From the NCBI RefSeq assembly GCF_004168365.1, contig NZ_CP035704.1:248001-312000 (forward strand): a stretch of 64,000 nucleotides of DNA. Direction: 5' to 3'. This document shows positions 13,847 to 42,743 of this stretch, in pieces. The position numbers were made by a program, and so were the translations under genes. The notes below the pieces were generated by a model. It saw only the letters and a list, made by a program, of their open reading frames with translations, was not told the DNA's origin and did no database searches. Each line of letters opens with the position of its first letter. The stretch's first letter is position 1. Source of the stretch: Pseudolysobacter antarcticus (GTDB taxonomy: Bacteria > Pseudomonadota > Gammaproteobacteria > Xanthomonadales > Rhodanobacteraceae).

Positions 13847-13883
13847 CGCAATGCTCCATCGCAGGAAAAGGTGGGATCAGTCA

Positions 13884-14981: not shown

Positions 14982-14985
14982 GGGT

Positions 14986-16302: not shown

Positions 16303-16386
16303 GGAAAACTCCTGAAATTCGATAGCCGGATACACGCGTGAAACGCGTCATCCACCAGCGCTCACGAAGAGCGCAGCAAAACGAAT

Positions 16387-20297: not shown

Positions 20298-20969
20298 TCA
20301 TACACCGGCTTTCTCGATCCAGCCGTCGAACAGGCGCAAGGTACGTTGTGCTTCCTTCGCATATTCCTCGTTGTGGGTCACTTGCACGATGGTCATGCCA
20401 TCGCGATTGAGATCGTGCAGCAGGTCCATGATCATGCGGCCCTGGCTCGAATGCAATGCGCCGGTCGGCTCGTCCGCCAGCAGCAAAACCGGACGCGTGA
20501 TCACCGCGCGCGCCACCGCAACCAACTGCTGCTGACCGCCCGAAAGCTGATTCGGATACAGATCTTTCTTGCCGACGATCTGGAAACGATCAAGCATGTC
20601 GGCCACTTGTGCGGCGCGTTCCTTGGCCGGGATGTCGCGGTATTGCAGCGGCAGGTCGAGGTTTTCCCAGACCTTCAAATCATCGATCAGATGATAATTC
20701 TGGAAGATGAAACCGATCTTGTCGCGCTGCAGCGCCTGGCGTTGTTTCGGAATCAATTTTTCGACCACGACATCATCCAGCATATAGCCGCCTTGCCAGT
20801 CGTGATCCATCAGCCCGAGCACATTCAACAGCGAGCTTTTGCCCGCGCCCGACGGCCCCATCACGCTGATGAATTCTCCCGCCGCGATATCCAGATTGAT
20901 GTTGCGCAGCACCCAGCTGCGGGCGCCCGCGAGCGGGTAGGATTTTTCGAGATTGCTGAGATGGATCAT
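20298..20969 (-). CDS. ABC transporter ATPase, MacB/LolD type (second ATPase of the cluster)
   Basis: 223 residues, a stand-alone nucleotide-binding domain. Walker A GPSGAGKSS, signature LSGGQQQL, Walker B LLLADEPTGA and the switch histidine in VTHNEEYA are all present. The D-loop reads ALHSSQ, lacking the usual Leu-Asp, an unusual but not necessarily inactivating change. It starts 24 bases after permease 1 and probably energises one or more of the eight permeases. It differs clearly from the first ATPase at 40587-41342, so the two may serve different permease subsets. Confidence 0.93.
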   Translation of the reverse strand: MIHLSNLEKSYPLAGARSWVLRNINLDIAAGEFISVMGPSGAGKSSLLNVLGLMDHDWQGGYMLDDVVVEKLIPKQRQALQRDKIGFIFQNYHLIDDLKVWENLDLPLQYRDIPAKERAAQVADMLDRFQIVGKKDLYPNQLSGGQQQLVAVARAVITRPVLLLADEPTGALHSSQGRMIMDLLHDLNRDGMTIVQVTHNEEYAKEAQRTLRLFDGWIEKAGV

Positions 20970-25839: not shown

Positions 25840-25849
25840 CGGAAAATTC

Positions 25850-28234
25850 TCATTCGTGACGCAAGGCAATGGTGGGATCGACCGCCGCCGCGCGCCATGC
25901 TGGCAGCCAGCACGCGAATGCGGCGACGGCGCTGACGATCAGTGCGGTGGCGGTCCACGTTTGCGGATCACTGAACGCGATGCCGAACAGGCGATCCGAC
26001 AACAGCCGCGCGAGCGGTATGCCGAGCGCGACTCCGAGCGCCGTGCCGAGTGCGATCAGTGCGCCGCCTTGGCGCATCACGAGGCCGATGATGCGCGATG
26101 CCTTGGCGCCGAGCGCCATGCGCACGCCGAATTCCGGCAGGCGTCGGCGCACCGCAAATCCGAGTACGGCGGTCAGCCCGAGCGCGGCCAAGATGAGCGT
26201 GGCGATGGCAAATCCGCCGAGCGCTTCGAGCAACGCGCGACGACCACTGAGGGTTTTTCCGACCAGTTCGCTCATCGGTTTGTTGACCCCGATATCGACG
26301 TCCGGCATGTGCGTGTGGATTTGCTGGCGCAGGGTTTCGGCGAACGCCGCCGGATCGAGACTTGTGCGAGTGACCAGCCAGAAAATCGGCAGCGGTGCCG
26401 CGTTGAAGTGATACAAGGTCGGCAGGTTGGCGGCCTCGCCGAGCGATTCGTGCTTGACCGTGTGTACAACGCCGATGATGCGCGCGCGGCGATAATTGTC
26501 GGCGTCGATGGGGATCTCGACATACGCACTCAGCGTGTCGCCATCGCGTAAAAAGCGATCGCGATACAGCTCGTCGACGATCACCGGACTGGCCTCGCCG
26601 AAATCCGTCGGTTCGAAATCGCGGCCTGCGCCGAGGCCAATGCCGAGCGCGGAAAAATAACCGGGGCCGACGCCGCGATCGCGCACTTCACGATTATCGG
26701 TTTCTCCGGGCAGGCGGATCGACGATACCGATTCCCAGCCGCTGAACGGCGGCATCGTGCTGACCGCCGCGTAGTCGACGCCGGGCAGGTTGGCGATATC
26801 GGCGCGCAAGCTTTCGACCATCGGCCGGAAGCGCGCCGCGTCGGTGTTTGCGTTGTAGTGTTTGCCGCGCATGCTCACCCCGACCGGATCGATCGCGGTC
26901 AATACCACGCCGCGCGTATCGAAGCCCGCATCGATCGAGACCAAGTTCACCGCGCTGCGCAGCAACAGGCCGCTGCTGCCGAGCAGGGCGGTCGTCAACA
27001 TCACTTGCGCCACCAGCATGGCCGGACGCACGCGGCCGAGACCGGTGATGCCAGCGCGGCTCGACAACGACGATGATCGTCGCGCGGCGAATATCGCCAG
27101 CGACGCGCTGCTGAGCACGGCCAGCGTGACCGCTAGCCCCGCGCCCATCATCGCCACGCCGAATCCGCTGCCTTGCGCGAGATCATCGGGCAATAATCCG
27201 CGTTGCTGGATCAGCCCCAATAGCAGCGGTGCGAGGACCAGCCCGAGGCCGAGGCCGATCGCGACCGGCGCGCCGAGGTCGAGCATCACGCCGCGCAGGA
27301 TCGCCGCTTCACTCGCGCCGATCGCGCGCCGGATTTCGAGCTCGCGCGAGCGTGCCAGCAGGCGATCGAGTTGCAGGTTGACGAGGTTCGCGGCGACCAC
27401 TGCGAGCAGCACCAGCGCGGCGAGTTGCAGCAACGCCAGCGACTGCCAATGCGCGGCGGTAAAACGCTCGCGCCACAGCCGTGCGTGCGCGCTCAAGCCG
27501 GGCCCGCCGCGCAAACCTTGCATGCTCGGCTCGTGTTCGAGAATCGCCGCGAGTGCCGCGTGCGCCTGATCCACGCTGGTGCCCGGCGCGAGGCGCGCGA
27601 CCACGTCGATATCGCCGACATTGCCTTTTTCCGATTGCGCGCGCTCGGCATCGGTCATCACGTACGGTCGCCACGCGTCGGTAGTTGCATCGGGGAATGC
27701 GAAGCCGCGCGGCATCACGCCGATCACGCTATAGCTGCGATCGTGCAGACGTACTTGTTGACCGATCACATTTGGATCGGCGTTGAAACGCGCGCGCCAG
27801 ATGGCATCGCTGAGCACCAGCACGGCATCGTCGCCGGGCTTCGCATCGGTAGGCGCGAAGCTGCGCCCGAGTGCCGCGGATACGCCGAGCACCTGCGAAA
27901 ATTCCTGGCTGACGCGCAACATTTGCCAGCTGCGGCCATCTTCTTCGCCGCGTGTTTTGACGAAGCCGAGCGCGCCGGAAAAATGCGCCTTGTCGACGAC
28001 GATATCCTCGCGCAATTTTTCAGTCAGACCGAGGGTGAAGCCGAATTTCGGCAACTCGGCCTGCAGATCAACGAGGTTGTCGGCGTCGGCATATGGCAAG
28101 GCTTTCCAGCGCAACGCGTGGATCGCACCGAACGCGGCGGCATTGATCGCCACCACAAATGCGATCAGCACTATCACGGTCACGGTGAAAAATGGTGTGC
28201 GCATTTGTCGGCGCAACAGCGAAGCGAAGTTCAT
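25850..28234 (-). CDS. ABC permease, duplicated MacB_PCD-FtsX type (permease 3)
   Basis: About 794 residues from ATG 28234, with GAGGA upstream. Closest relative inside the cluster is permease 2: both begin with an RRQMRTPFF motif, have the loop AFGAIHALRWKALPY, and the second FtsX block FAVRRRLPEFGVRMALGA. Other array members share only the overall layout. Ten bases separate it from permease 4 and ten from permease 2, so the three genes are almost certainly co-translated from one message. Confidence 0.9.
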   Translation of the reverse strand: MNFASLLRRQMRTPFFTVTVIVLIAFVVAINAAAFGAIHALRWKALPYADADNLVDLQAELPKFGFTLGLTEKLREDIVVDKAHFSGALGFVKTRGEEDGRSWQMLRVSQEFSQVLGVSAALGRSFAPTDAKPGDDAVLVLSDAIWRARFNADPNVIGQQVRLHDRSYSVIGVMPRGFAFPDATTDAWRPYVMTDAERAQSEKGNVGDIDVVARLAPGTSVDQAHAALAAILEHEPSMQGLRGGPGLSAHARLWRERFTAAHWQSLALLQLAALVLLAVVAANLVNLQLDRLLARSRELEIRRAIGASEAAILRGVMLDLGAPVAIGLGLGLVLAPLLLGLIQQRGLLPDDLAQGSGFGVAMMGAGLAVTLAVLSSASLAIFAARRSSSLSSRAGITGLGRVRPAMLVAQVMLTTALLGSSGLLLRSAVNLVSIDAGFDTRGVVLTAIDPVGVSMRGKHYNANTDAARFRPMVESLRADIANLPGVDYAAVSTMPPFSGWESVSSIRLPGETDNREVRDRGVGPGYFSALGIGLGAGRDFEPTDFGEASPVIVDELYRDRFLRDGDTLSAYVEIPIDADNYRRARIIGVVHTVKHESLGEAANLPTLYHFNAAPLPIFWLVTRTSLDPAAFAETLRQQIHTHMPDVDIGVNKPMSELVGKTLSGRRALLEALGGFAIATLILAALGLTAVLGFAVRRRLPEFGVRMALGAKASRIIGLVMRQGGALIALGTALGVALGIPLARLLSDRLFGIAFSDPQTWTATALIVSAVAAFACWLPAWRAAAVDPTIALRHE

Positions 28235-28244
28235 CGGAGAGTCC

Positions 28245-30713
28245 TCATTCGTGACGCAAGGCGATAGTGGGATCGACCGTGGCTGCGCGCCACGCCGGTA
28301 TGCCGCACGCGAGCAACGTGGTGAAAACAATCACGCTACAAACCAGCGCGAGCGTGAGCGGATCGTGTGCGTCGATGCCGAACAGTTGCGCGCGTAGGCG
28401 ATACGCGACGCTGAGCGCAATCAGCAGTCCCAGCACCAGGCCGATCGCGACGAGCCGGCCGCCATCGAATAACACCAACCGCAGGATGTCGTGGCGCTGC
28501 GCACCGAGCGACATACGTACACCGATTTCGCCGCGTCGTTGCGTCACGGCGAATGCGAGCACGCCATAAATGCCGACCGCAGCGAGCAACAGCGCGGCGG
28601 CGGCGAACAGCATCAGCAGCAACATTGGCGTGCGACGATCAGTCAGCGAATCGTCGATGCGTTCGTGCATCGTCTTGATATCAAACACGGCCTGGTCGGG
28701 ATCGATTTTTTGCCAGGCCGCGCGCAATGGCCCGATCAATTCGGCGGCGGCGAGTCGGGTTTTCATCACGAGCATGAACAGTCGCGTCGGGTCTTGATGG
28801 AAATTTCGATACAGCGTTTCCATCGTGGTGTTTTCGTACAATTTGTTGCGCTTCACCGTCGCTACAACGCCGATAATCGTCTGCCAGTCACGCTCGATAT
28901 TGACTCCGCGCCACGCAATACGTTTGCCGATCGCGCTCTCGTTCGGGAAATATTTCTTGGCGAACGTGTCGTCAACGATCACGACTTTTTGTGCGCCGAT
29001 ATTGTCGCTACTCAAGAATCCGCGGCCTTGCAACAACGGGATTTCCAGCGTCTTGAAATAGTCCTCGTCGATGACTTCGAGGTAGCCGAACGGTGTCGCT
29101 TGTGCGGCGGAAACATCGCGGCCTTCGATGAAATATGCGGCCGAGGATTCATCGTCGGTGAACAGCATTGAGCTCGCTACGCCAGCGGATTGCACGCCGG
29201 GCAGCGCGCGTACTTCCATCAGTAATCGCTCGTAGAACGGCGCGGCATCGGCGCTGCTTTTATAACGGCTCGGCGGCAGATGTACGCTCACGGTAAGCAC
29301 ATCGTCGGCGTTGAACCCGGGACTCTGTTGCTGCATCCGCGCGTAGCTGTGCAGCAATAGTCCGGCACCTATCAACAGCACCACCGCAAGCGTGATCTGC
29401 GCGATCACCAGCGTATTGCGGATACGGCGCGACGAACGACCGCCGAGGTTGCCGCGTCCGCCTTCCTTGAGAGCATCGGCAGGCCGTTCGCGCATCAGCG
29501 CGAGGATCGGCACCAGAGCAAAAGCCAGCCCGGTAAGCACGGTCAAAATCAGGGTGTAGATAAACACCGGCAGATCGAGATCGATACTGAATCCGTATAT
29601 CGCGCCGTCCAGTCCGAGCGCATGAATCAGCTGGATGCAGACTTGCGCCACAACCATTCCGGCGATGCCGCCGCCGAGCGCGAGCAACAGACTTTCCAGC
29701 AACAGTTGTTGCGCGATGCGCGCGCGCCCGGCACCGAGGGCGGAACGCAGCGCGAGCTCCTTCTGTCGCGACGAAACACGCAGCAACATCAGGTTGGCGG
29801 CATTCGCGCAGGCGATCAGGAGCACCGCAGCGACCACCGCCTGCAGCAGCCACAGCAGCGGTTTGATGTCACCGGCTTGTTGCTCGTGCAGCGATTTGCT
29901 GCGGCCGCGAAAGCCGGAGCTTTCGATGAACGATTTGTAACTCCGGCTATCACCGTTGCCGTCGGCGAAGCGTTCGACATTGTGCCGCACGATCAGATCG
30001 AACTGCGCATCGAGTTGTGCGATCGAGACGCCGGGTCTGAGCCGACCGATACTGCGCGCGAAATCGAAACCGCGCATCGAATCGCCACTCTGTTTCGGCG
30101 TGAACGCAAACGCTGTCCACACCTGCACCGTGCGATTGGGAAAGCCGAAATTTTCCGGCATCACGCCAACCACGCGGTAACTTTCTGCATTCATGCGAAT
30201 GTCGCGACCGACCATCGCCGGATCGGCATTGAACTGGTTTTTCCACAGCGCATGACTCAGCACCACGACATGCTCGTGGCCGATTTGTGCCTCGTCCGCG
30301 GTGAATGTGCGCCCGAGCGCAGCGGTCACCTGCAGCGTCGTGAACAACGACGGCGTCGCGACGATGCCAACTACATTCTGCGCGCCATTCGCATCGGCAA
30401 GGTTGAAGCTGCGGTCGTAATATAGCGCGCTATCGGCTAGCTGATCGGCCTGGTCGCGACGGTCGATGAAGTCCGGCACGGTCATGCCGGATTCGGCCTG
30501 ATCCATCTTCGGATAACTGTTGTAGATGTAGACCAGCCGCGTACTGTCGGGATAGGCCAGCGGCCGCAACAACATGCCGTTGATCACGCTGAAAATCGCG
30601 CTATTGGCACCGATGCCGAGCGCCAATGTCGCGACCACCGCCAGCACAAAACCCGGTCGCGCCGCGAGCAGACGCAGGCTCTGAGAAAAATCGGCGCGCA
30701 GCGAGGTCAGCAC
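28245..30713 (-). CDS. ABC permease, duplicated MacB_PCD-FtsX type (permease 4)
   Basis: 822 residues. Begins with LLAARPGFVLAVVATLALGIGANSAIF in pieces typical of ADOP permeases: a conserved RPGF followed by a helix and GIGANSAIFSV. The second half contains FAVTQRRGEIGVRMSLGAQ, the FtsX signature region. The protein ends in IALRHE. It is separated from permease 5 by 93 bases, one of only two larger gaps in the array, which could hold an internal promoter or processing site; I saw no clear sigma-54 or terminator motif there. Confidence 0.9.
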   Translation of the reverse strand: MLTSLRADFSQSLRLLAARPGFVLAVVATLALGIGANSAIFSVINGMLLRPLAYPDSTRLVYIYNSYPKMDQAESGMTVPDFIDRRDQADQLADSALYYDRSFNLADANGAQNVVGIVATPSLFTTLQVTAALGRTFTADEAQIGHEHVVVLSHALWKNQFNADPAMVGRDIRMNAESYRVVGVMPENFGFPNRTVQVWTAFAFTPKQSGDSMRGFDFARSIGRLRPGVSIAQLDAQFDLIVRHNVERFADGNGDSRSYKSFIESSGFRGRSKSLHEQQAGDIKPLLWLLQAVVAAVLLIACANAANLMLLRVSSRQKELALRSALGAGRARIAQQLLLESLLLALGGGIAGMVVAQVCIQLIHALGLDGAIYGFSIDLDLPVFIYTLILTVLTGLAFALVPILALMRERPADALKEGGRGNLGGRSSRRIRNTLVIAQITLAVVLLIGAGLLLHSYARMQQQSPGFNADDVLTVSVHLPPSRYKSSADAAPFYERLLMEVRALPGVQSAGVASSMLFTDDESSAAYFIEGRDVSAAQATPFGYLEVIDEDYFKTLEIPLLQGRGFLSSDNIGAQKVVIVDDTFAKKYFPNESAIGKRIAWRGVNIERDWQTIIGVVATVKRNKLYENTTMETLYRNFHQDPTRLFMLVMKTRLAAAELIGPLRAAWQKIDPDQAVFDIKTMHERIDDSLTDRRTPMLLLMLFAAAALLLAAVGIYGVLAFAVTQRRGEIGVRMSLGAQRHDILRLVLFDGGRLVAIGLVLGLLIALSVAYRLRAQLFGIDAHDPLTLALVCSVIVFTTLLACGIPAWRAATVDPTIALRHE

Positions 30714-30806: not shown

Positions 30807-33242
30807 TTATTCCTGGCGCAGCGCGATGATCGGATTGATCGATGCGGCGCGGCGCGCCGGCAGATAACTCGCGAGCATCGCGATCGCCGCGAGCAACAAG
30901 CCGGCGCCGAGGAAGGCCAGCGCATCGGCTGCGTTCGCGCCAAACAACAGGCTCGATACCAGCATCGCGCCACCGAGTGACAGCACCGCGCCGATAACTA
31001 GGCCGCTGCTCGCGAGCAAGGCGCCGCGACGCAATACATCGGCCACGATGCGTCGCGGACTCGCGCCCATCGCGAGGCGCACGCCGAACTCACGTGTGCG
31101 GCTCGCGACATGCATTGCGATCAGGCCGTACAAACCGATCGCGGCGAGCAGCAGGCCGATGCCGCCGAGTGCGAGCGAGATCATGCCGACGATTCGTTGT
31201 GGCAACAGCGACAGCGCAATCACATCGGTCAGCGGATGTATTTGTCCCGCCGGCACTGATGCATCGAGCGTATGCAGTTCGCTGCGCATTTGCATGGCAA
31301 ACGTGTTTGGCGGTAAAGACGTCTTTACCACCAAGGATGCTTCCGCGCGCGGCCATTGCGTCAGCGGCAGGAACAGGAACGGTTCGCTGGTTTCGCTTAG
31401 CGATGCGTATTTTCCGTTCGCGGCAATACCGATCACAGTCAAGGTGTGCAAATCATCCTTGTCGCCGTAAACAAAGCTGCGGCCGAGCACATCGCCGCTT
31501 GGCACCAGCAGGTGCGCCAGTGCGACATTCACCACGCACACTTCGGTGTTGCCCTTGTTATCGTGCAGATCGAAACCGCGGCCTTGCAGCTTGATATCCA
31601 GCGTCTCGAAAAATCCGGGTGAGACGAGATTGGTATCGGGACTCACCGCGTCTTCGGGCAAGTTCGGCAACTGGAAACTGCCGAAACTCATGTGGCTCAA
31701 ATCGAGCGGTACCAGCGCGGCGAGTGCGGCTTGTTCGACTCCTGGCATCTGGCGCACATGTTCAGTGAATGTCTTTTGAATTTGTGCCAGCGCGGCAGGC
31801 GCATAACCGCTCGGTTCGAGATTGAAATCGGCGGTCAGCACATGCTGCGGATCGAAGCCGGTATCGATCGCCGCGGCGCGTTGCAATGCACGCATGAACA
31901 ATCCGCCGCTGACCAGCAGCACCATCGTCAACGCGATTTGCGCAACCACCAGTGTGCTGCCGAGCCGCGACCGACCTCCGGCAATTTGTCGACTCACGAG
32001 CGCCTGGCTCGCACCGGGTGCGTGCTTGGAGATACGCAGCGCCGGCAGCAGTCCGAACACGAGCGCGGTGACCAGTGTGCAGCCGAGCGCGAACATGAGC
32101 GCAGCGCCATCCATCGGCACGTGCATGGATATCGGCACCGGCGTTGGCGGATCGATTTGCGACAACAGCGCGCAACAGCCCCTGCCGAGCAATACGCCGA
32201 TCACGCCTGCACCTAGCGACAGCAAAATACTTTCGGTCAGCAATTGCGAGATCACGCGCGTGCGGCTCGCGCCGAGTACAAAACGCATCGCGATTTCGTG
32301 GCGGCGTGCTTCGCCACGCGCCAGCAGCATCGAGGCGACATTCACACAGGCGACCAGCAGGATCAGCGAAATCAGCGCGAACAACAGGCCGGAAAATGCG
32401 ATCAATCCACCACGGAATTCGCCGGGTACGGCACGTAGCGCTACCACGCTGATGCCACCGTCGTTGCGCGGCCGCGGATACGCGCTGGCGAGTTGCTGGC
32501 CAATCACCGATAACTGATTTTGCGCGAGCGCGACGGTGGTATCCGGCGTCAGTCGTGCCGCGAGCGACAGCCATGCGGAAGCGCGCTCATCGAAGCGGCG
32601 CGGCGCACCGGGCTTGAGCAATGCAAGCTGATGCAACGGCACGTAGAACGCCGGCGTGAGCAAGGCGATGGTGCCGTGGAATTCCGGCGCAGCGATGCCG
32701 GCCAGAGTAAACGCCTGACCGTTGATCAGCACCGGTTTGCCGACCGCCGTGGTATCGCCATCGAGATACTTGCGCCACGCCGCGTAACTGGCAACCACCA
32801 CCGGTGCGGCGCCATCACGATCGTCGTTGTCGCTGAGCAGGCGGCCGCGATACGCTGCTACTTGCAACGTATCGAAATAATTCCCGCTGACCACCAGCCC
32901 GAGGGCGCGCTGCGGTTCGCCCGCGACACTCACGTTGAGGGGCTGCATGGCATACGCGAAAAGTGTTGCGAAATTTTTGGCGCGCAGCGCGTAGTCGCTG
33001 AAGTCCGGATAAGAGAATGATTCGAAGCCGTCGCCGTGCCGCGTACGGCCCAGTTCGACCACCGTGGTTTGGGTGCCGATACCGCTCACCGGCGCGAACA
33101 AAAAAGTATTCACGACACTGAACAAGGTTGTGCTGGCGGCGATGCCGATCGCCAGCGACAACACTGCAAACAGCGTGAAGCCGGGTCGGTTCAGCAGTTG
33201 ACGGGTGGCGTAGCGCAAGTTCTGCAAGAAGATCGATAACAT
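30807..33242 (-). CDS. ABC permease, duplicated MacB_PCD-FtsX type (permease 5)
   Basis: 811 residues, starting MLSIFLQNLRYATRQLLNRPGF, with the GIAASTTLFSVVNTFLF segment that opens many ADOP proteins. First FtsX block near LILLVACVNVASMLLARGEARR; second near HVASRTREFGVRLAMGAS. It ends IALRQE. Nine bases separate its start from the stop of permease 6. It is not obviously a recent duplicate of any other member, so the array mixes old and young paralogues. Confidence 0.9.
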   Translation of the reverse strand: MLSIFLQNLRYATRQLLNRPGFTLFAVLSLAIGIAASTTLFSVVNTFLFAPVSGIGTQTTVVELGRTRHGDGFESFSYPDFSDYALRAKNFATLFAYAMQPLNVSVAGEPQRALGLVVSGNYFDTLQVAAYRGRLLSDNDDRDGAAPVVVASYAAWRKYLDGDTTAVGKPVLINGQAFTLAGIAAPEFHGTIALLTPAFYVPLHQLALLKPGAPRRFDERASAWLSLAARLTPDTTVALAQNQLSVIGQQLASAYPRPRNDGGISVVALRAVPGEFRGGLIAFSGLLFALISLILLVACVNVASMLLARGEARRHEIAMRFVLGASRTRVISQLLTESILLSLGAGVIGVLLGRGCCALLSQIDPPTPVPISMHVPMDGAALMFALGCTLVTALVFGLLPALRISKHAPGASQALVSRQIAGGRSRLGSTLVVAQIALTMVLLVSGGLFMRALQRAAAIDTGFDPQHVLTADFNLEPSGYAPAALAQIQKTFTEHVRQMPGVEQAALAALVPLDLSHMSFGSFQLPNLPEDAVSPDTNLVSPGFFETLDIKLQGRGFDLHDNKGNTEVCVVNVALAHLLVPSGDVLGRSFVYGDKDDLHTLTVIGIAANGKYASLSETSEPFLFLPLTQWPRAEASLVVKTSLPPNTFAMQMRSELHTLDASVPAGQIHPLTDVIALSLLPQRIVGMISLALGGIGLLLAAIGLYGLIAMHVASRTREFGVRLAMGASPRRIVADVLRRGALLASSGLVIGAVLSLGGAMLVSSLLFGANAADALAFLGAGLLLAAIAMLASYLPARRAASINPIIALRQE

Positions 33243-33251
33243 GAAATTTCC

Positions 33252-35669
33252 TTAGTCGTGACGCAGGGCAATCATCGGATCGACGCGCAGCGCACGACGC
33301 GCCGGAATCGTCACCGCGAGCACTGCAGCGAGAATCAAAATGCCGAGCGCGCTCGACACCACAGTGGCATCGCTGGCCGGAATGCTGTGCAGGGATTCAC
33401 TCAATAAATGTGCGAACGGAATGCCGCCGGCCAAACCGATGGCGAGGCCGACACCGAGCTGGACGAAGCTGCGACCAAACAGGTTGCGCAGCACGCTTGG
33501 GCTGCTCGCACCGAGCGCGCGGCGCACGCCGATTTCGCGCATGCGCTGGTCGACGCTGAATGCCATCACGCCATACAAACCCGCGCCGGCCAGCACCAGC
33601 GCGATTGCGCCGAAGATGCCGAAACTTTGCGCGACGATGCGTTCGCCGAACGACACGCTGCGCATGACGGCGGCGTAGTCGCGCGTCCAGTACACCGGTG
33701 TGTCGGGATCGATCGTGCGCATGATTTCGTCAAGGCGCGGTGCGAACGCAAGCGCATCGCCGCGCGTGCGTACCGCGATGCTGGCGACCCGAAACGGCCC
33801 TTGGCGCAACGGGATCAGCAGTGTTGGTTGTGGTTGATCACCGGGTGCATACAGCTTGAGTGCACCGATCACGCCGACGACCGTCACCGCGGCCGCATTC
33901 GGATCGCGTGGATCGAGCCGAAAGCGGCGTCCGAGGATCGGTTGATCGCTGCTGAAGCGCTCGACAAAACGCCGATCGACGACCGCAGTGCGATCGCCAT
34001 CGGCGCGGTCGCGACTGTCGAAAAAACGGCCTTCCTGCAAGGCGATGCCATAGGCCGCGAGAAAATGATCGTCGACGGCGCCGTAGCTTGTCTGCGCTAA
34101 AACGCTGTCGCCGAATATTGTGTTTTCTGCCGGCAACACGGCATGACTTTCGTTGAACCAAGTGCCGGGCAGCGCAGTGCCGAGGCTGCTGTCGATTACG
34201 CCCGCATCGGCGCGCAGGTGTTCCGCCAGTTTGTCGTAAAGCTGCCATTGCGCCGCTGCATTCGGGTAAGTATTTTCCGGTAATACGATGCGAGCGCTGA
34301 GCAGGTGGCCGGTGTCGATACCGAGATCGATGTGGTCGATCGAGACGATGCCGCGCAGCATCGTGCCGACGCTGATCAGCAAGGCGCACGACAACGCGAC
34401 CTCACCGATAACGAGCATGCGGCTGATGCGCCCGAACGAGCCGCCGGCGACGTTGCGTCCGCCTTCGCGCAGGCCGCTCGCGACTGCGGCAGCGGCGCGC
34501 AACGCTGGCAGCAAACCGCTGGCGAGGGCGGTGAGCAGCGCCGCGCCAAGCGCGAGCAGCACGACCGTGCTGTCCAGATCGAAACGCAACCACAGCGGCG
34601 GACCGAAATCCGCAGCGCGCAACATACGTTGTTGCCAGCCGATGCCGATCTGCGCGAGCAGCAATGCGGCGACCGTCGCGAGCAGGCTCAGCAGCAGACT
34701 TTCGGCGAGCAGATGGCCGATCAGGCGTTTGCGCGTGGCCCCCAGCGCCACCCGCAACGCGAACTCCTGGCGCCGACTCAGCGTGCGCGTCAGCAGCAGA
34801 TTTGCGGCGTTCGCGCAGGCCAGCAGCAACACCACAAAAACGCTGCCGAGCATGAGTCGCAACATCGCGCGCATGCTGCGCTCGACCGCCATATACGCGA
34901 GCGGCTCGATGCCCGCACGCAGACCGCGGAAACGCTCCGGCTCGCGCTGCGCGGCTTGCGCCAACCAGTTATCGAGCGTCGCGCTCAGAGCGACATCGGT
35001 CGCATCTGCATGTCGGCGCAGGATCACCCAGTACGCGCGATCGTCCGACTTCGCTGCATCTGTGAGCGCTGCCGCGAGCCAGATCACTTCACGACTCGGA
35101 TAGCTGAAATTTTGCGGCATCACGCCGATCACCGTGGTCGGCTGCGCATTCACGCGCACCTGCCGACCGATGATCTGCGGATCGCCGCCGTAGCGGCTTT
35201 GCCAGAGCTCATAGGACAGCATCGCGGTTGCCGCCGCGCCTTCGCGCTCGTCATCGCCGGAAAAATCCCGACCGAGCAGTGGTGCGATACCGAGCACATG
35301 AAATAGATTGGTGCTGACAAACGCGCCGTTGACGCGCTGCGGCCGATCCTGATCGCTGAGATTGATCGTTGAGCGCGCCACGCCGCCGATTTCCGCCGAG
35401 CTCGCCAAATACCGCCGCATCTCGATCAGATCGGTATTGTTGACCGGGTTGATATTCTCGTCGCCGCTGATATTACGAACACCGGCGTGCAGCAACTGTT
35501 CTGGCGCCGCGAACGGCAGCGGCCGCAGCAGAAAACCGTTGATCATCGCAAGCATGAAAATCACGCAGGTGAGTCCGGCCGTAAGCACGCCGATCACGAG
35601 CGCAGAAAAGGCCGGTCGTGTGGCGATGCCGCGCGCGGCGTGCTTGAGTTCGGTCCAGCAGATGTTCAT
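33252..35669 (-). CDS. ABC permease, duplicated MacB_PCD-FtsX type (permease 6)
   Basis: About 805 residues. ATG 35669 is preferred over a TTG two codons upstream because GGGAAT is better placed. Its first 46 codons match permease 7 almost base for base (three differences over 138 bp), whereas the remainder of the protein is much less similar. Both halves keep the core and FtsX domains (RTLSRRQEFALRVALGA and VDQRMREIGVRRALGA). It ends IALRHD. A 90-base gap precedes it. Confidence 0.9.
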   Translation of the reverse strand: MNICWTELKHAARGIATRPAFSALVIGVLTAGLTCVIFMLAMINGFLLRPLPFAAPEQLLHAGVRNISGDENINPVNNTDLIEMRRYLASSAEIGGVARSTINLSDQDRPQRVNGAFVSTNLFHVLGIAPLLGRDFSGDDEREGAAATAMLSYELWQSRYGGDPQIIGRQVRVNAQPTTVIGVMPQNFSYPSREVIWLAAALTDAAKSDDRAYWVILRRHADATDVALSATLDNWLAQAAQREPERFRGLRAGIEPLAYMAVERSMRAMLRLMLGSVFVVLLLACANAANLLLTRTLSRRQEFALRVALGATRKRLIGHLLAESLLLSLLATVAALLLAQIGIGWQQRMLRAADFGPPLWLRFDLDSTVVLLALGAALLTALASGLLPALRAAAAVASGLREGGRNVAGGSFGRISRMLVIGEVALSCALLISVGTMLRGIVSIDHIDLGIDTGHLLSARIVLPENTYPNAAAQWQLYDKLAEHLRADAGVIDSSLGTALPGTWFNESHAVLPAENTIFGDSVLAQTSYGAVDDHFLAAYGIALQEGRFFDSRDRADGDRTAVVDRRFVERFSSDQPILGRRFRLDPRDPNAAAVTVVGVIGALKLYAPGDQPQPTLLIPLRQGPFRVASIAVRTRGDALAFAPRLDEIMRTIDPDTPVYWTRDYAAVMRSVSFGERIVAQSFGIFGAIALVLAGAGLYGVMAFSVDQRMREIGVRRALGASSPSVLRNLFGRSFVQLGVGLAIGLAGGIPFAHLLSESLHSIPASDATVVSSALGILILAAVLAVTIPARRALRVDPMIALRHD
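35532..35669 (-). repeat. Near-identical 5' end shared by permeases 6 and 7 (unit in permease 6)
   Basis: 138 bp matching 38046-38183 with three substitutions (offset 2,514). The match stops abruptly on the coding side, while the rest of the two genes is divergent. Confidence 0.9.
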
Positions 35670-35759
35670 CGCCAAATTCCCGATGCAGTGCGGGGCGTAG
35701 CGCCTCGTGAAACGTGCGTTGTTAGCCGCGCGGTCAAGGTTGAATTTTTCATGCGACTA

Positions 35760-38183
35760 TCACTCGTGGCGCAGGGCAATCATTGGATCGACACGCAACG
35801 CGCGACGCGCCGGAACGATCACCGCGAATGCTGCGGTCAGCAGCAACATACACAACACGCCGAGTACCATCAGCGGGTCGTGCACAGCAACGGTTTGGGA
35901 ATATCGGGTCAGCATGCGCGCGAACGGAATGCCCATGCCTAAGCCCAAGGCGAGGCCGATCCCGACTTGCGCGGCGGCGCGGGCAAAGACGCTGCGCAAT
36001 ATTCGCCACTGCGGCGCACCTAGTGCACGGCGTACACCGATTTCTCGCGTGCGCTGGCCAACGCTGAACGCCATTACGCCGTAGAGGCCAGCACTCGCGA
36101 TCAACAACGCGATCAAGCCGGAGATGGCAAACCACTGCAAGGTCTGGCGTTCATTGGTGGTGTTTCGATGGTTGTACTTTGCATAGTCGCCGACGCCGTA
36201 CAACGGAATATCCGGATCGATGCCGTGCATGATTTCGGTCAGTCGCGGGGTATACGATTTTGCGTTACCACGCGTGCGCACAGTGACGATGCCATACACG
36301 TTCGGTGCCTGGCGCAGCGGTACCAGCATCGATGGAAACTTCGGCTCTTGTGGCGTGGTCAGGGTCAAGGTTTCGACAACGCCGACCACGGTCACCGTAC
36401 GCATGCTTGGATCGCTCGAATCGATGCGGAAGCGTTTGCCCAACACGCTGGCGCCATCACCGAGACGTTCGACAAAACGCCGATCGACCACCGCCACTTG
36501 CTCACTGTCGGCGCGATCGCGGCTGTCGAAAAATCGCCCTTCCTGCAAATGGATGCCGAAGGTGCTCAGGCTGTGATCGTCCACCGCACCGTAATACATC
36601 GGTGGCAAAACGTGATCACCTATCGGCGCGCTGTCCGGCGCTACATCGAGCGTATCGCTCCATACGCCGGGCTGTATCTGACCGACCGAGGCATCAACCA
36701 CATTGGCATCGTCGCGCAGGCGCTGCGTCAGTTTTTCGTACAAACGCAGTTGATCGTTATTGCTGGGATAGGTGCTCTTGGTCAGATCGAACTTTGCGCT
36801 GAGCAGGTGTTGTTCGTCGATGCCGAGATGCGCATGTTCGACCGCGGTGATGGCGCGCAGCATCGTGCCGACGCTGATCAACAGCACGCACGAAAGCGCG
36901 ATTTCACCGATCACGAGAATTCGACTGACACGCGCGAATGAACCGCCGACGACACTCGGCGCAGCATCGCGCAACGGGCCTGCCGTCAGCGTGTTGCTTG
37001 CATGGAGTGCCGGTAACAAACCGCATAGCAGTGCCGATATCAACGTTGCGCCAATGGCGAACAGCACACTGCTCGAATCCAGCGAAAAATGTTGCCACGG
37101 CGCATGCGCATCGGACTGAAGCCAAGTCGACTCCTGCCAAACCGCACCAATCACGGCCAGCGGCACTGCAATCGCCGCGGCGATCAGACTCAGCAACAGG
37201 CTCTGCATCAGCAATTGCAATACGATCCGTGATCGGCTTGCGCCCAGCGCGATGCGAACGCCGAGTTCCTGGCGACGCGCCAACGTGCGTGTCAGCAATA
37301 GATTGGCGGCGTTGGCGCAGGCCACCAGCAGCACCAGCATCACGGCGACAAATGCGAGCGTAAAAAAAAGCCGTTCGCGCGGGCTGTAATGCGTAAAAGC
37401 CGCGATCACCGCATGCTGATTCTGCAGGCGATGCGGCTCGGCGCGCACGGCGTCGGCGAACCACGAATCCAACGCATTCTGTATCGCCGCATCGTCGATT
37501 CCTGGCATGCGACGCAGCACAATTTTCATGCCCCAATCTGCTGCGACGAGGTTCTTGCCTTCGCCAAGCACGGCGGGAATCCACAGCGCCTCCTTACCCG
37601 GATAACCATAATTTTCGGGCATGACGCCGATGATATTGGCCGCATGAGAGTCGACTCGAATTTGTCGTTCGATGATCGCTGGATCGCCGCCATAACGGCT
37701 CTGCCACAAGCGATAGGACAGCATGGCCACAGCCGGCGAACCTTCACGACCATCGTCGTCGACGAAATCGCGACCGAGCATCGGGGCAACACCGAAGACA
37801 TGAAACAGATTGGTGGTGTTGATGCCGCCTTCGACAACTTCGGGGCGATCCAGATCGCTGAGCCGGATCACCGCCGTCGTATAACTCGCGACTTCGGCAA
37901 TGCCTTTGAGCTGCCGACGGATTTGCAAAAAATCATTATCGTTGCCGACACTCAGGTCCGCATTGTTGAATTGTTCGTGACCGTTTTTTTCGACCAGACC
38001 GGCCTTCAATAATTGATCGGGCGCATTGAATGGCGGTGGACGGACAAAACCGTTGATCATCGCAAGCATGAAAATCACGCAGGTAAGTCCGGCGGCAAGC
38101 ACGCCGATCACGAGCGCAGAAAAGGCCGGTCGTGTGGCGATGCCGCGCGCGGCGTGCTTGAGTTCGGTCCAGCAGATGTTCAT
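35760..38183 (-). CDS. ABC permease, duplicated MacB_PCD-FtsX type (permease 7)
   Basis: 807 residues, beginning MNICWTELKHAARGIATRP like permease 6. The periplasmic cores have diverged strongly from permease 6, which is where substrate or adaptor contacts are expected. FtsX marks: RTLARRQELGVRIALGAS in the middle and VGQRTREIGVRRALGAP near the C-terminus. It ends IALRHE. It is ten bases downstream of permease 8. Confidence 0.9.
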   Translation of the reverse strand: MNICWTELKHAARGIATRPAFSALVIGVLAAGLTCVIFMLAMINGFVRPPPFNAPDQLLKAGLVEKNGHEQFNNADLSVGNDNDFLQIRRQLKGIAEVASYTTAVIRLSDLDRPEVVEGGINTTNLFHVFGVAPMLGRDFVDDDGREGSPAVAMLSYRLWQSRYGGDPAIIERQIRVDSHAANIIGVMPENYGYPGKEALWIPAVLGEGKNLVAADWGMKIVLRRMPGIDDAAIQNALDSWFADAVRAEPHRLQNQHAVIAAFTHYSPRERLFFTLAFVAVMLVLLVACANAANLLLTRTLARRQELGVRIALGASRSRIVLQLLMQSLLLSLIAAAIAVPLAVIGAVWQESTWLQSDAHAPWQHFSLDSSSVLFAIGATLISALLCGLLPALHASNTLTAGPLRDAAPSVVGGSFARVSRILVIGEIALSCVLLISVGTMLRAITAVEHAHLGIDEQHLLSAKFDLTKSTYPSNNDQLRLYEKLTQRLRDDANVVDASVGQIQPGVWSDTLDVAPDSAPIGDHVLPPMYYGAVDDHSLSTFGIHLQEGRFFDSRDRADSEQVAVVDRRFVERLGDGASVLGKRFRIDSSDPSMRTVTVVGVVETLTLTTPQEPKFPSMLVPLRQAPNVYGIVTVRTRGNAKSYTPRLTEIMHGIDPDIPLYGVGDYAKYNHRNTTNERQTLQWFAISGLIALLIASAGLYGVMAFSVGQRTREIGVRRALGAPQWRILRSVFARAAAQVGIGLALGLGMGIPFARMLTRYSQTVAVHDPLMVLGVLCMLLLTAAFAVIVPARRALRVDPMIALRHE
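38046..38183 (-). repeat. Near-identical 5' end shared by permeases 6 and 7 (unit in permease 7)
   Basis: Partner of 35532-35669. A tract this conserved beside diverged sequence suggests gene conversion at the 5' end or a recent recombination that swapped the periplasmic part. Confidence 0.9.
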
Positions 38184-38193
38184 CGTTGCAGCC

Positions 38194-40590
38194 TCAGATC
38201 AACGCATCACGCGGTGCCACCGCGCACGCGCGGCGCGCGGGCAGCAGGCATGCCAGCAGCAGGGTGATAAGTAACAGCAGACTCACGCCGATCAAGGTCA
38301 GCGGATCGCTCGCGGGCACGCCGAACAGCAAGCTGCGCAGGGTGTTGGCGCCGATCAGCGCGCCGATCAGGCCGATGCCGATCCCGCTCGCACCGATGCG
38401 CAATCCGCTGCCGACCACAAGTTTGGCGATGCGGCTGCGCGATGATCCCAATGCCTGGCGCAAAGCGAATTCATGCTCACGCTGGCCGACCGCAAATGCC
38501 ATCAAGCCGTACAGGCCGCCGATCGCGAGCACCAGCGCGACGCTGGCGAATGCGCCCAGCAGGATCAGGCTGAAACGCCGATCCGCCAAAGCCGACGCGC
38601 GTACTTCTTCAAGCGGACGCAAGCTGTACGGAATGCCGCTGGCGAGTTGCTGCAGACTGCCGCGCAACTCACTCATCAGCGCGGTCGTTGCAAGGGTCGA
38701 GCGCACCACGATGTTGAGCTCGGCCGCAACCATCGGGCGCTGTTGAAGATCGACGTAGATCGTGCCGCTCGGCGCGCGTTCGAGTTGTCTTTCGTGCACA
38801 TCGCCGACCACGCCGACGATGGTGAGAATATGCATGTCGCCGTCCATGTTGCCGAACTGGATGCGTTGGCCGATCGGGTCGCGTTCGCCCCACGTGGCGT
38901 GCGCGGCAGTGGCGCTGATCAACGCGACGTGTTCGCTATCGCTGCGATCGGAATCAGCGAAGCTGCGCCCGCGCAACAGCGGGATGCCGCTGGCCGCGAA
39001 ATAGTCCGCGCTGGCAACGCGAAATTCGGCATGCCCGATGGGTGTCGGCGCTTTGTCCGGGCTGGTCACGCTGCCATCCCAGAAACCACCGTCGGCACCG
39101 TCGTCGGTCAGCGGCAGTCCGCTCACGCCGCCGACCGCATTCACGCCGGGCAGTCGCGCGAATGCACTCATCAATTCGGTGTAACGTCGCGCGGTGGTCG
39201 CGGCGACGGCGGCATCGCGTGTCCACGGCTGCGACACCTGCACGTTGACTGCGCCCGCCGTGGCGAAACCCGGATCGACCGCGAGCAAGGCGAGAAAACT
39301 TCGCCCGAGCAGACCGGCGCCGATCAGCAGCACGGTGGTCAGCGCTGTTTGTCCGATCAGCAGCAAGGCGCGCGCGCGCAGATGACTTTTACTTGGCGAT
39401 TGGCCGCGGCCGCTTTCGCGCAATACGCCGATCACACTCTGGCGACGATTGCTGAGCACCACGGCGCCAGTCACGATCAGCGCGATCACGAGCGCGGCAA
39501 GCATGCTGATCGCAATACTGCCGGCGCCGATATGGATTTCCTGCGTGCGCGGCAAACTGGTCGCGGCGAACTGCAGCAGCAACTTGATTGCAACCGCCGC
39601 GGCGATCAATGCCAGCAGTGTCGCGCTGGCGGCGATCAGCAAACTCTCGAACAGAATCTGTCGCGCCAACCGCGCGCCGCTCGCGCCGAGCGCGGCGCGC
39701 ACCGCGAGTTCACGCGAGCGCGAACCGTTCAGCGCGAGCAGCAGATTGGTGGTGTTGGTGATCGCGATCAGCAGCAGGAAAGCGCAGCCCGCGGCGAGCA
39801 GCAACAGCGCGCTACGCACTGGTGCGGCGATCGCATCGCCGAGCGGGGTGAGATCGAATGCGACGGCATCGGTGTCCTTGCCGAAGCGGCGTTTGAGATT
39901 GGTCGCGAGTCCATTCGCTGCCAGCCGCGCCTGGCCCAGATCCGCGCCCGGGCGCAGTCGCGCGAGTGCCTGCCAGTTATGCGCGCTGCGCGAAGTGCCG
40001 GGGTCGTCGAGCATCGGCGTCCACACCGCGGTTTCTTGCGGAAAGGCAAAACCTGCTGGCATCACACCGATGATGATGTGCGGTATGCCATCGATATCCA
40101 GCGACTGGCCGAGCACGTCGGCACGACCGTGCAACAGGTTCTGCCACAACGCGTGGCCGATCACCGCGACAGGCTCGCGCTCACCGGCGGCGAAGGTGCG
40201 TCCGAGTTGCGGCGCGATGCCGAGCGCACGAAAAAAATCGCCGCCGCTGAAGCCGATAATTGCGCGGATCGCGTTATCGCCATTACGCAGCAGACCGGAG
40301 TTGGCGTTGTGGAATGCGATCGCATCGAACTGGTCGAGCGACGCGGCGAGATCGTCGTAATTCGGCGTCGCCAGCGCCATGCTGTGACCGTTGTCGGCGA
40401 CCTCGTGAATCACCACCAGACGCTCGGCCTGCGGGTACGGCAGCGCGCGCAACAACACCGCATCGATCACGCAGAAAATCGCGATCGCCGCCGCCAGACC
40501 GATACCCAGCGTGAGCACCGCAAAACTCGCGGTGCCGCCGCGCGCGCGCAGACTGCGCAAGGCGTGGCGCAGATCGTCGAAGATGTTCAT
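38194..40590 (-). CDS. ABC permease, duplicated MacB_PCD-FtsX type (permease 8, promoter-proximal)
   Basis: 798 residues, first permease behind the promoter. Its ATG overlaps the stop of the first ATPase (ATGA), so the two are made together and probably work together. The layout is as in the others, but the C-terminus ends PRDALI and lacks the ALR-x-E ending of the other seven, marking it as the most distinct member. FtsX marks: NGSRSRELAVRAALGAS and VGQREHEFALRQALGSS. Confidence 0.9.
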   Translation of the reverse strand: MNIFDDLRHALRSLRARGGTASFAVLTLGIGLAAAIAIFCVIDAVLLRALPYPQAERLVVIHEVADNGHSMALATPNYDDLAASLDQFDAIAFHNANSGLLRNGDNAIRAIIGFSGGDFFRALGIAPQLGRTFAAGEREPVAVIGHALWQNLLHGRADVLGQSLDIDGIPHIIIGVMPAGFAFPQETAVWTPMLDDPGTSRSAHNWQALARLRPGADLGQARLAANGLATNLKRRFGKDTDAVAFDLTPLGDAIAAPVRSALLLLAAGCAFLLLIAITNTTNLLLALNGSRSRELAVRAALGASGARLARQILFESLLIAASATLLALIAAAVAIKLLLQFAATSLPRTQEIHIGAGSIAISMLAALVIALIVTGAVVLSNRRQSVIGVLRESGRGQSPSKSHLRARALLLIGQTALTTVLLIGAGLLGRSFLALLAVDPGFATAGAVNVQVSQPWTRDAAVAATTARRYTELMSAFARLPGVNAVGGVSGLPLTDDGADGGFWDGSVTSPDKAPTPIGHAEFRVASADYFAASGIPLLRGRSFADSDRSDSEHVALISATAAHATWGERDPIGQRIQFGNMDGDMHILTIVGVVGDVHERQLERAPSGTIYVDLQQRPMVAAELNIVVRSTLATTALMSELRGSLQQLASGIPYSLRPLEEVRASALADRRFSLILLGAFASVALVLAIGGLYGLMAFAVGQREHEFALRQALGSSRSRIAKLVVGSGLRIGASGIGIGLIGALIGANTLRSLLFGVPASDPLTLIGVSLLLLITLLLACLLPARRACAVAPRDALI

Positions 40591-41342
40591 GGCGCAATGC
40601 GTTGGCTGGCCGGACGACGCAGGCGTTCGTCTTCTTCGTGGCGCAGGCGATGCATCGTTGCCTCGTCGACGACACGGCCATCGAACATGAAAATCCGGCG
40701 CTCGGCGAATTCGGCATAACGCGTATCGTGGGTGACCATGCAGATGGTCGAACCGGCTTTGTGCAGTTCGTCGAGCAGCGTCATCACTGCCTCGCCGTTT
40801 TTGGAATCCAGATTGCCGGTGGGCTCATCGGCGAGCAGGATCGACGGCTGTCCGACCAGCGCGCGCGCGACCGCAACACGTTGCTGCTGGCCACCGGAAA
40901 GTTGCGCCGGATAATGTTTCACGCGATGCGCCATGCCGACTCTTTCGAGCGCCGCAATCGTGCGGTCGCGGCGCTCGGCTTTGCTCACGCCATCGCGATA
41001 GGTCAGCGGCAGTTCGACGTTCTCGAATACGCTCAGATCGCCGATCAGGTTGAACGCCTGAAACACAAAACCGATTTCCTGATTGCGGATCAATGCGCGT
41101 TCGCTCGCGCCGATGTCGGCGACCTCGCGACCGTTCAAAACATAGGTGCCTTCGCTCGGCGTATCGAGTAGACCGAGGATCGCCAGCAGGGTCGATTTGC
41201 CGCAGCCGGACGGGCCGGAAATCGATACGTATTCGCCGCGCCGGATATCGAAATGGACGCCGGCCAATGCGTGCGTTTCCACCTCGTCGGTGAGGAACAC
41301 TTTTTTGATACTGTCGAGGCGGATCAGGGATTCGGTGCTCAT
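40587..41342 (-). CDS. ABC transporter ATPase, MacB/LolD type (first ATPase of the cluster)
   Basis: 251 residues with Walker A GPSGCGKST, signature LSGGQQQRVAVARAL, Walker B ILLADEPTGNLDS and switch histidine in VTHDTRYAEFA. The LolD/MacB-type DSKNG after the D-loop is present. It starts 42 bases after the adaptor gene and overlaps permease 8 by four bases. With the adaptor it forms the conserved head of the cluster. Its C-terminal tail is basic (RLRHEEDERLRRPASQR). Confidence 0.95.
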   Translation of the reverse strand: MSTESLIRLDSIKKVFLTDEVETHALAGVHFDIRRGEYVSISGPSGCGKSTLLAILGLLDTPSEGTYVLNGREVADIGASERALIRNQEIGFVFQAFNLIGDLSVFENVELPLTYRDGVSKAERRDRTIAALERVGMAHRVKHYPAQLSGGQQQRVAVARALVGQPSILLADEPTGNLDSKNGEAVMTLLDELHKAGSTICMVTHDTRYAEFAERRIFMFDGRVVDEATMHRLRHEEDERLRRPASQRIAP

Positions 41343-41384: not shown

Positions 41385-42638
41385 TTATTTCAGACGGATA
41401 CGATCGTGCTGATCGTACGCGCTGGTATCGGACAGAATCACCTGATCGCCGACGCGCAGACCTTGCAGAATTTCTATCAAGTTGACCGAACTTTTACCGA
41501 GCCGCACCGGCACGCGCGCGGCAATACCGGTGGCCGCATCGAGGCGAAACATGCGCACCTCGGAATCAGGCTGGCCGAACGCCGGACGACCAACAAAAAG
41601 TACATCTGGCAGGCGATCAATTTCGATCGTCCCGTCGACTGAAAGATCGGGGCGCGCGCCGGCTGGCAGCGCGCCGGTCAGATCGACATCCACCTGCACC
41701 GTGCCGTTCTGCACGGCTGGATCAACGCGCACCACTTTGCCTTCAACGACGCCGTTGCGCGTATCCACTTTTACCGGCTGGCCGAGCACGATGTCCTTCG
41801 CTTGGGTTTCGGCGATGCGCAGTTGCGCGCGCAACTCGTTCGGCCGCGCCACTCTCGCGAGATTGGTACCGGCCACAACCTGCTGGCCTTCCTCGACCGG
41901 CACCTGCTGCAACACGCCGGCGATACCCGCGCGCAAATGCAGCGAATCGGCCTGGCGCTGGCGCAGATTACACGCCCCAACGAGCTGATCAAGGCGCGCT
42001 TGTTCGGCAGCGATCTGCGCCGTGATGTTTTGGCCGAATTCGACCACGCGCTGTTCTTCGATCGACACGCGCCCCTTAAGCTGCTCCAGCATCACCAGGC
42101 TTTTTTTGTATTGCACGGCAGCGATCACGCCTTTGTCGGCGATGACTTTTTCGGCCTCGGCCTGCATCCGCGCGATCTCATAACTGCTGCGCGCCAAGGC
42201 GAGCGCAGATTGTTCGTCGAGAAGTTTCGATTTCAGATCGGTGCGCTTGGCGGCGAGGTCGGCCTGCGCCGCCGTGACGGCAGCTTTTGCGGCGAGCAAT
42301 TGGCTTTCGACCTCGGGATTGCTGAGTTCGAGGATTACCGTATCGGCCTGCACCGTAGCACCGGGGCGCACCACGATGTGTTCGATACGCGCTGCGGTTT
42401 CGGCGGCAATCCAGCGGATTTCCTTCGGCACCAACGTGCCCGGGCCGCGCACTTCGCGCAGCAGTTCGCCGCGTTTGACGGTATCGATCAGCACGCTGCT
42501 GCGATCGACTGAGGCCACGGCGGGGCCGAGCGCATACAGCCCGACGCTGGCGCTGGCGAGGGCGGCAACAATGATGGCGCCGATGATGTACTGGCGGCGG
42601 CGTTTGCGTTTTTTCAGTTCGGGGCGGGCAATGTCCAT
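41385..42638 (-). CDS. MacA/HlyD-like periplasmic adaptor, first gene of the cluster
   Basis: About 417 residues from ATG 42638. A basic cytoplasmic tail (ELKKRKRRRQ) precedes one membrane helix (about 18-38); then a half-lipoyl motif (GTLVPKEIRWIAAETAARIE split over the strand), a long coiled-coil hairpin (about 105-230), the second lipoyl half and a beta-barrel with VKVDTRNGVVEGKVVRVDP. It would bridge MacB-like permeases to an outer-membrane channel. MDIARPE is the family-like start; there is no ribosome site before it and the predicted sigma-54 +1 falls on its A, so a leaderless message is possible. Confidence 0.9.
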   Translation of the reverse strand: MDIARPELKKRKRRRQYIIGAIIVAALASASVGLYALGPAVASVDRSSVLIDTVKRGELLREVRGPGTLVPKEIRWIAAETAARIEHIVVRPGATVQADTVILELSNPEVESQLLAAKAAVTAAQADLAAKRTDLKSKLLDEQSALALARSSYEIARMQAEAEKVIADKGVIAAVQYKKSLVMLEQLKGRVSIEEQRVVEFGQNITAQIAAEQARLDQLVGACNLRQRQADSLHLRAGIAGVLQQVPVEEGQQVVAGTNLARVARPNELRAQLRIAETQAKDIVLGQPVKVDTRNGVVEGKVVRVDPAVQNGTVQVDVDLTGALPAGARPDLSVDGTIEIDRLPDVLFVGRPAFGQPDSEVRMFRLDAATGIAARVPVRLGKSSVNLIEILQGLRVGDQVILSDTSAYDQHDRIRLK

Positions 42639-42648
42639 GGCTTGCAAG

Positions 42649-42664
42649 AGCAGGGAGCGTGCCA
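42649..42664 (-). promoter_or_regulatory. Sigma-54 promoter of the ABC permease cluster
   Basis: On the minus strand TGGCAC-GCTCC-CTGCT matches the RpoN consensus TGGCAY-N5-TTGCW with one mismatch (C for the first T of the -12 element). GG is at 42663-42662 and GC at 42651-42650, correctly ten bases apart. The predicted +1 is base 42638, exactly the A of the adaptor ATG. The cluster encodes its own sigma-54 activator, which supports the call. Confidence 0.75.
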
Positions 42665-42727: not shown

Positions 42728-42743
42728 CGTCCATTATCGGACG
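42728..42743. promoter_or_regulatory. Candidate enhancer site for the cluster's sigma-54 activator
   Basis: CGTCC and GGACG form an inverted repeat around ATTATC. Its centre is about 97 bp upstream of the predicted +1 at 42638, a typical distance for sigma-54 activator sites. A related CGGACG element occurs near 42949. Assignment is inference. Confidence 0.4.

Follow-up and report, generated by a model that had tools for sequence, protein, structure and literature searches.

A sigma-54 gene normally has a leader of some tens of bases. A locus of Pseudolysobacter antarcticus raises the question of whether a promoter of this class can produce an mRNA that begins at, or almost at, the start codon of its first gene. 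On the minus strand of the window, i.e. the whole stretch of 64,000 nucleotides that we analysed, a sigma-54 site stands so close to the ATG of a periplasmic adaptor gene that transcription is predicted to begin on the start codon itself. Comparing this arrangement across orthologues, we consider it quite probable that an activator-gated sigma-54 promoter of a MacAB-like exporter operon makes a leaderless or near-leaderless mRNA.

The sigma-54 site and the adaptor start codon

Around the adaptor start, the minus strand of the window reads TTGGCACGCTCCCTGCTcttgcaagccATGGACATT, the part over the site and the ATG being ...cagcTTGGCACGCTCCCTGCTcttgcaagccATGGACATT.... The predicted sigma-54 (-24/-12) promoter, TGGCACGCTCCCTGCT (42649..42664, minus strand), was assigned by pattern match and by its place being kept in orthologues. 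It matches the sigma-54 pattern TGGCACNNNNNYTGCW exactly, with GG at -24, GC at -12 and the fixed spacing between them: the first element, the -24 box TGGCAC, occupies 42664-42659, and N5 separates it from the -12 box CTGCT at 42653-42649. A sequence-only reading of this DNA had described the two boxes as correctly spaced, as they are, and had put +1 at the adaptor start codon. Our count from the -12 C at 42650 agrees, as it arrives at 42638, the A of the adaptor ATG (42636..42638, minus strand). That reading had also seen no ribosome binding site before the ATG, and the anti-Shine-Dalgarno duplex energy of +0.5 kcal/mol, calculated with a generic 16S tail, bears this out. Two inner genes of the cluster, the first permease and the kinase, are likewise devoid of a Shine-Dalgarno match (duplex energies of +1.2 and +0.6). 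According to folding of the first 60 nt of the adaptor, the AUG is unpaired at 0.69 versus 0.54 for internal stretches, and this somewhat more open AUG is compatible with leaderless initiation, though weak as an indication.

Taken by itself, the site does not exceed chance expectation, and the weight therefore lies on its conservation at one fixed place. With at most one mismatch, TGGCACNNNNNYTGCW has 9 matches in the window versus 5.6 ± 2.3 in shuffles, a number that 14 of 100 shuffles reach; the sole exact match in the window is the promoter site. Genome-wide, the 20 exact matches compare with 16 for the reversed pattern. Given these figures, we rejected significance of the motif derived from window or genome alone. 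The genome counts also speak for a chance match without function, a reading to which we give practically no credence: it is already contradicted by the same site recurring in the same place in 89 of 99 upstream regions, by the linked activator and by the phased palindromes, all described below. The gene for the sigma factor, rpoN, is present in the genome (one PF00309 match over the cut-off, in a 488-aa open frame).

We also searched the genome for other genes of this kind. The pattern TGGCAY-N6-TGC-N10..12-ATG matched 7 times versus once in the reversed control, and among these 7 matches the adaptor alone looked like a real gene start, so that no other leaderless sigma-54 gene was found with this pattern in the same genome. 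At L136 (G000:C2:1678493), a consensus sigma-54 site stands before a small gene whose likely start, MKSSNKVDAQR, lies 14 codons, or about 40 nt, further down. Across 61 genomes, the same pattern with ATGG gave many matches among those listed; as the reversed control is not codon-matched, these were used individually only.

A permease-rich exporter cluster

The adaptor is the first gene of a cluster that spans about 26 kb on one strand (window 16835-42638, minus strand). Profile matches identify the adaptor itself (P0001, 417 aa, 41385..42638) as a periplasmic protein of the HlyD/RND_mfp type, with TIGR01730 at 97 bits (cut-off 94.9), and the next gene as a first ABC ATPase resembling MacB, LolD and FtsE (40587..41342). 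It is followed by a permease with MacB_PCD and FtsX domains that belongs to the ADOP family (38194..40590; TIGR03434 669.8 bits, cut-off 622.3). A second ADOP-like permease (35760..38183) was recognized by the length and look of its translation, and five more, at 33252..35675, 30807..33242, 28245..30713, 25850..28330 and 23452..25869, are putative assignments from translation. The eighth (20994..23420) reaches 620.3 bits with TIGR03434, just under the cut-off, and thus the first and last of the eight permease-like genes are the ones typed by profile. A second ABC ATPase (20298..20969, profile matches) precedes a regulator and a kinase gene that end the cluster, all of these genes being on the minus strand.

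In its HlyD/RND_mfp adaptor, LolD/FtsE-like ATPase and MacB_PCD plus FtsX permeases, the cluster resembles MacAB-like tripartite exporters and ADOP (TIGR03434). It differs from MacAB-like exporters in that ATPase and permease are separate genes here, and in having eight permease-like genes for one adaptor and two ATPases. Such sharing of one adaptor and two ATPases by eight large tandem permease-like genes marks a permease-rich exporter locus. Assignment as a darobactin exporter (DarC) was rejected, with NF038010 scoring 73.5 bits against a cut-off of 450. Adjoining the cluster (10736-16335, minus strand) is an apparent metal RND efflux set of pump, adaptor and outer-membrane factor, judged from translations.

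Conservation of the site across orthologues

Two sets of orthologous loci were compared. The first combined a search of 61 genomes, our own included (19 loci, L005-L023), with a named-genome scan, from which the best 80 of 417 matches were used; the closest adaptor among these 80, from a Pseudolysobacter MAG, is 94% identical. Together with the window, and after merging 6 duplicate pairs, this set comprised 94 distinct upstream regions, 57 of them gammaproteobacterial, from within the order or outside it as judged by title or kinship, and 37 from other phyla. The second set came from an order-wide draw of 250 genomes. An orthologue at the cut-off of E <= 1e-70 was present in 69 of the 250, and most sampled genomes of the order thus lack the adaptor gene. 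We took 52 rows that were new by handle, dropping a partial match in G085; nine duplicated first-set loci and L231 duplicated another second-set locus, which left 42. Two gammaproteobacterial loci of about 37-38% identity, L024 and L177, are outside the 57 and hence outside the 99 regions considered jointly.

A sigma-54 site in the same place, with a predicted leader of 0-2 nt, was found in 89 of the 99 distinct upstream regions from the order and near Gammaproteobacteria, a count that overstates independence because the loci are related. The first set contributes 56 of 57: a strong site gives a leader of 0 nt in 9 loci, 1 nt in 39 and 2 nt in 7, and L086 joins them with 1 nt from an ATG one codon up, leaving Lysobacter chinensis (L082), devoid of a sigma-54 site, as the sole miss. 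The second set contributes 33 of 42, with strong sites and leaders of 0, 1 and 2 nt in 3, 25 and 4 loci (n=32), and with L240 as the 33rd, its leader being 1 nt once its ATG is taken. Five further second-set loci carry a degenerate site in the same place (L203, L204, L210, L223 and L224), and in four the site is absent (L215, L221, L222 and L242). In L215 and L222 the distance from the end of a TGA to the ATG is 5 nt, and in L221 it is 8 nt, which might reflect a gene ending there. The two more distant loci count against fixed spacing, L024 having a degenerate site with a 27-nt leader and L177 no sigma-54 site.

The bases next to the start codon are conserved as well. Of the 87 upstream regions scored in both sets, 80 have C at position -1 to the ATG (first set: C in 52 of 55, A in 2, T in 1; second set: C in 28 of 32, T in 4), and all 55 first-set loci with leaders of 0-2 nt, window included, start with ATG. 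A Shine-Dalgarno-like 4-mer within -16..-5 occurs in 1 of these 55 loci versus 15 of 37 from other phyla. Likewise, an anti-Shine-Dalgarno duplex energy of -6 kcal/mol or lower is reached by 6 of the 57 gammaproteobacterial adaptors versus 16 of the 37. In the other phyla, 13 of 37 upstream regions have a strong site, which lies further upstream and predicts leaders of 5-21 nt; the remaining 24 fall below the score threshold, with weaker variants in some (L088, L090 and L100 at 2-3 nt). In a quickly built tree comprising 101 adaptors, leader state goes with clade and at least 4 changes are needed; the deep part of this tree is unsure because of long branches.

Along these lines, the comparison supports the proposal, made in the sequence-only reading, of a leaderless message from a sigma-54 promoter. 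The site could also be a real promoter while most adaptor synthesis draws on a longer transcript from an upstream (sigma-70) promoter, the near-zero spacing being a by-product of compaction. Double promoters of this sort have a precedent in Bradyrhizobium, where 305 transcription start sites with both promoter types predicted are reported from dRNA-seq in the part of the study we draw on (PMC4842269). We regard this as improbable for the adaptor, because the spacing of 0-2 nt and the nearly fixed C at -1 argue against a by-product, and because a longer mRNA would still be devoid of a Shine-Dalgarno sequence in nearly all first-set loci.

Predicted transcription start and start of translation

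Having found predicted leaders of 0-2 nt in most loci, we asked which base is the likely start. Counted strictly from the -12 element, +1 coincides with the first base of the ATG in 9 of 55 first-set loci and lies one base before it in 39 of 55; in 38 of these 39, the base so reached is C. RNA polymerase favours starting at a purine that is preceded by a pyrimidine. Because of this preference, and as 53 of the 55 loci have a pyrimidine-purine step at the first base of the ATG, we take this A as the likely start. Transcription thus likely begins on the A of the ATG, and a leader of 1-2 nt would differ little. Since the usual leader by strict count is 1 nt rather than 0, exact leaderlessness rests on the polymerase preferring the A after the C.

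For translation, the sequence-only reading had offered a start further downstream as its alternative, which does not fit the shared N-terminus MD(I)xR of leaderless and leadered orthologues. M1 and D2 are invariant across 21 aligned orthologues, and the same start residue is found in orthologues from Acidobacteria, Opitutae and a deltaproteobacterial record. A few orthologues of other phyla use GTG or TTG instead, or begin one codon earlier. Translation could conversely begin upstream of the ATG, for example at an in-frame TTG 3-15 codons before it, and the sigma-54 site would then be inside the gene. The window permits this, its frame being open for 18 codons upstream with TTG codons at 3, 9 and 15 codons before the ATG, and some start-like codon lies upstream in frame in 35 of 57 loci. 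In the other 22, however, no alternative start codon occurs between the in-frame stop and the ATG. As the leadered orthologues, too, begin with MD(I), we judge an upstream start very improbable and retain the ATG at 42636..42638 as the adaptor start.

Sister adaptors with longer predicted leaders

As controls, we used 19 lower-identity adaptors from the 61-genome search and one further stretch (L189). Thirteen of these sister adaptors (L173, L174 and L178-L188) start with MI(R/K)DTS, and all 13 have a sigma-54 site upstream, which predicts leaders of 23-53 nt when that methionine is taken as the start. Six share a genome with a leaderless orthologue (G010, G013, G022, G029, G036 and G039). The leaderless position is also occupied by an in-frame ATG in L173 and by an in-frame GTG in L185, and in L186 and L187 an extra in-frame start lies 2 bases nearer than this position; owing to these second possible starts, the leaders of the four loci are uncertain. 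Two other adaptors, L171 and L175, start with MDR and are predicted to be leaderless. Among the remaining controls, no sigma-54 site was found for L172 and L176, nor for L177 mentioned above, and only a distant one for L190. The further stretch L189 (G013:C1:2855800-2859000, minus strand) holds a second sigma-54 site of the leaderless type, TGGCACGGCGTTTGC, with C before the ATG. It starts a 49-aa frame that begins with MDIA just upstream of a permease, and looks like a copied promoter plus start.

A linked presumed activator and phased upstream palindromes

Sigma-54 promoters served by NtrC-type activators combine -24 GG and -12 GC elements at fixed spacing with upstream palindromes and a linked regulator and kinase, and the adaptor locus is alike in its promoter elements, their spacing and the linked regulator and kinase, the palindromes being conserved among its orthologues. 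The regulator gene of the cluster (18222..19607, minus strand) encodes a sigma-54 response regulator with receiver, Sigma54_activat and Fis-type HTH domains (PF00072, PF00158 and PF02954, all over cut-off), as in NtrC-type activators. The kinase gene (16835..18169, minus strand) encodes a histidine kinase with HATPase_c over and HisKA under the cut-off. We presume that the regulator is the activator of the adaptor promoter and the kinase its partner, the pairing being by linkage only. A regulator homologue occurs near the adaptor, within flanks of at most 10 kb, in 19 of 80 loci, 6 of them gammaproteobacterial; an extra match in L054 is ntrC itself and stands outside the 19. Most gammaproteobacterial loci have no regulator in the flank, and missed regulators are to be expected, as that of the window is itself about 23 kb from the promoter. 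The regulator loop reads GAFTDA rather than the exact GAFTGA, and the same loop is present in 15 of the 19 linked homologues, from several phyla (it was not read in the other 4). In the text we cite, GAFTDA appears among the GAFTGA variants said to keep activation (PMC4641369), and we rejected it as a novelty on these grounds. Upstream of the adaptor and divergent from it lie an NtrB-like kinase (234.3 bits, slightly below the 240 required for NR(II)) and a true NtrC (above the TIGR01818 cut-off), both assigned by profile matches (44858-47351, plus strand). This ntrBC pair was set aside as the activator of the cluster because the cluster ends with a regulator/kinase pair of its own, the homologues of which travel with the adaptor.

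A dyad count without preset motif yielded the palindrome TGTCCG-N4-CGGACA. Scores of at least 10/12 were found in 39 of 57 first-set loci and in 23 of 42 second-set loci. For the first set, with one plain shuffle per locus, such scores came up in 2 of 57, and among 57 coding stretches they did not occur. Distances from the palindrome centre to the ATG cluster near 78, 87, 98, 108, 120 and 130, with eight beyond 150. Over 63 sites the distances are periodic, with R of 0.59 at 10.5 bp and 0.57 at 11, though nominal probabilities of this periodicity are too small because the loci are related; by set, the first peaks nearer 11.5 (0.65; 0.53 at 10.5) and the second at 10.5 (0.71). In the window, the candidate activator site (UAS) CGTCCGATAATGGACG (42728..42743, minus strand) begins 105 nt before the ATG and matches the palindrome at 9/12, a score not beyond chance in its own genome.

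Proposed mechanism and meaning

Sequence comparison establishes the genes, the site with its spacing, the start codon, the upstream palindromes and the linkage of the regulator. From these elements, we propose that the histidine kinase of the cluster would phosphorylate the sigma-54 response regulator, which would bind palindromes mostly centred about 75-130 bp upstream, on one helix face. The regulator would then open the RNA polymerase-sigma-54 complex at the -24/-12 site, on which expression should depend, and transcription would begin on the A of the adaptor ATG or 1-2 bases before it. Ribosomes would have to start from the 5'-terminal AUG of this mRNA, without a Shine-Dalgarno sequence.

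The predicted adaptor leader of 0-2 nt departs from usual sigma-54 promoters, as the sister adaptors with their 23-53 nt illustrate. A core promoter element at a short fixed distance before the AUG, with no Shine-Dalgarno sequence, is a feature that the adaptor shares with leaderless mRNAs of Deinococcus and Campylobacter, as far as the cited parts of these studies go (PMC12340547, PMC3847290). The element is of the sigma-70 type there, with a -10 motif beside the ORF of leaderless genes in Deinococcus (PMC12340547) and sigma-70 sites in Campylobacter (PMC3847290), whereas the adaptor has a sigma-54 site in this role, conserved across an order. According to the same passages of the latter report, leaderless genes are poorly conserved among the Epsilonproteobacteria studied, with the exception of one gene (PMC3847290). 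Mapping of leaderless genes has been widespread. For S. meliloti, 171 mapped leaderless genes are given in the text cited (PMC3616915). For Bradyrhizobium, the portion we use gives 320 transcription start sites within 0-10 nt of the start codon, 192 of them exactly at it, together with an extended -10 motif (PMC4842269). Among the matches listed in a literature search for sigma-54/RpoN and leaderless genes, Xanthomonas included, none was by title on a sigma-54 leaderless gene; an entry in a supplementary table of transcription start sites is possible. Set against the sigma-70-like promoters in the cited parts of these reports, the adaptor would be a gene that is leaderless order-wide and transcribed with an enhancer-dependent sigma factor.

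Whether the coupling was selected as such is a more speculative matter. A sigma-54 promoter that fires only when activated, joined to an mRNA usable by leaderless (70S-type) initiation only, might permit expression of the first gene of the exporter under impairment of normal initiation, such as the exported compounds could cause. Within one protein family, the same promoter would have switched between leadered and leaderless forms along phylum boundaries. We hold this view tentatively and think it rather doubtful as it stands. The leadered orthologues in other phyla, together with the sigma-54 sister operons that have longer leaders in the same genomes, provide a natural experiment on why the leader was given up. 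Moreover, models of start sites and expression that are based on the Shine-Dalgarno sequence would misjudge this exporter operon.
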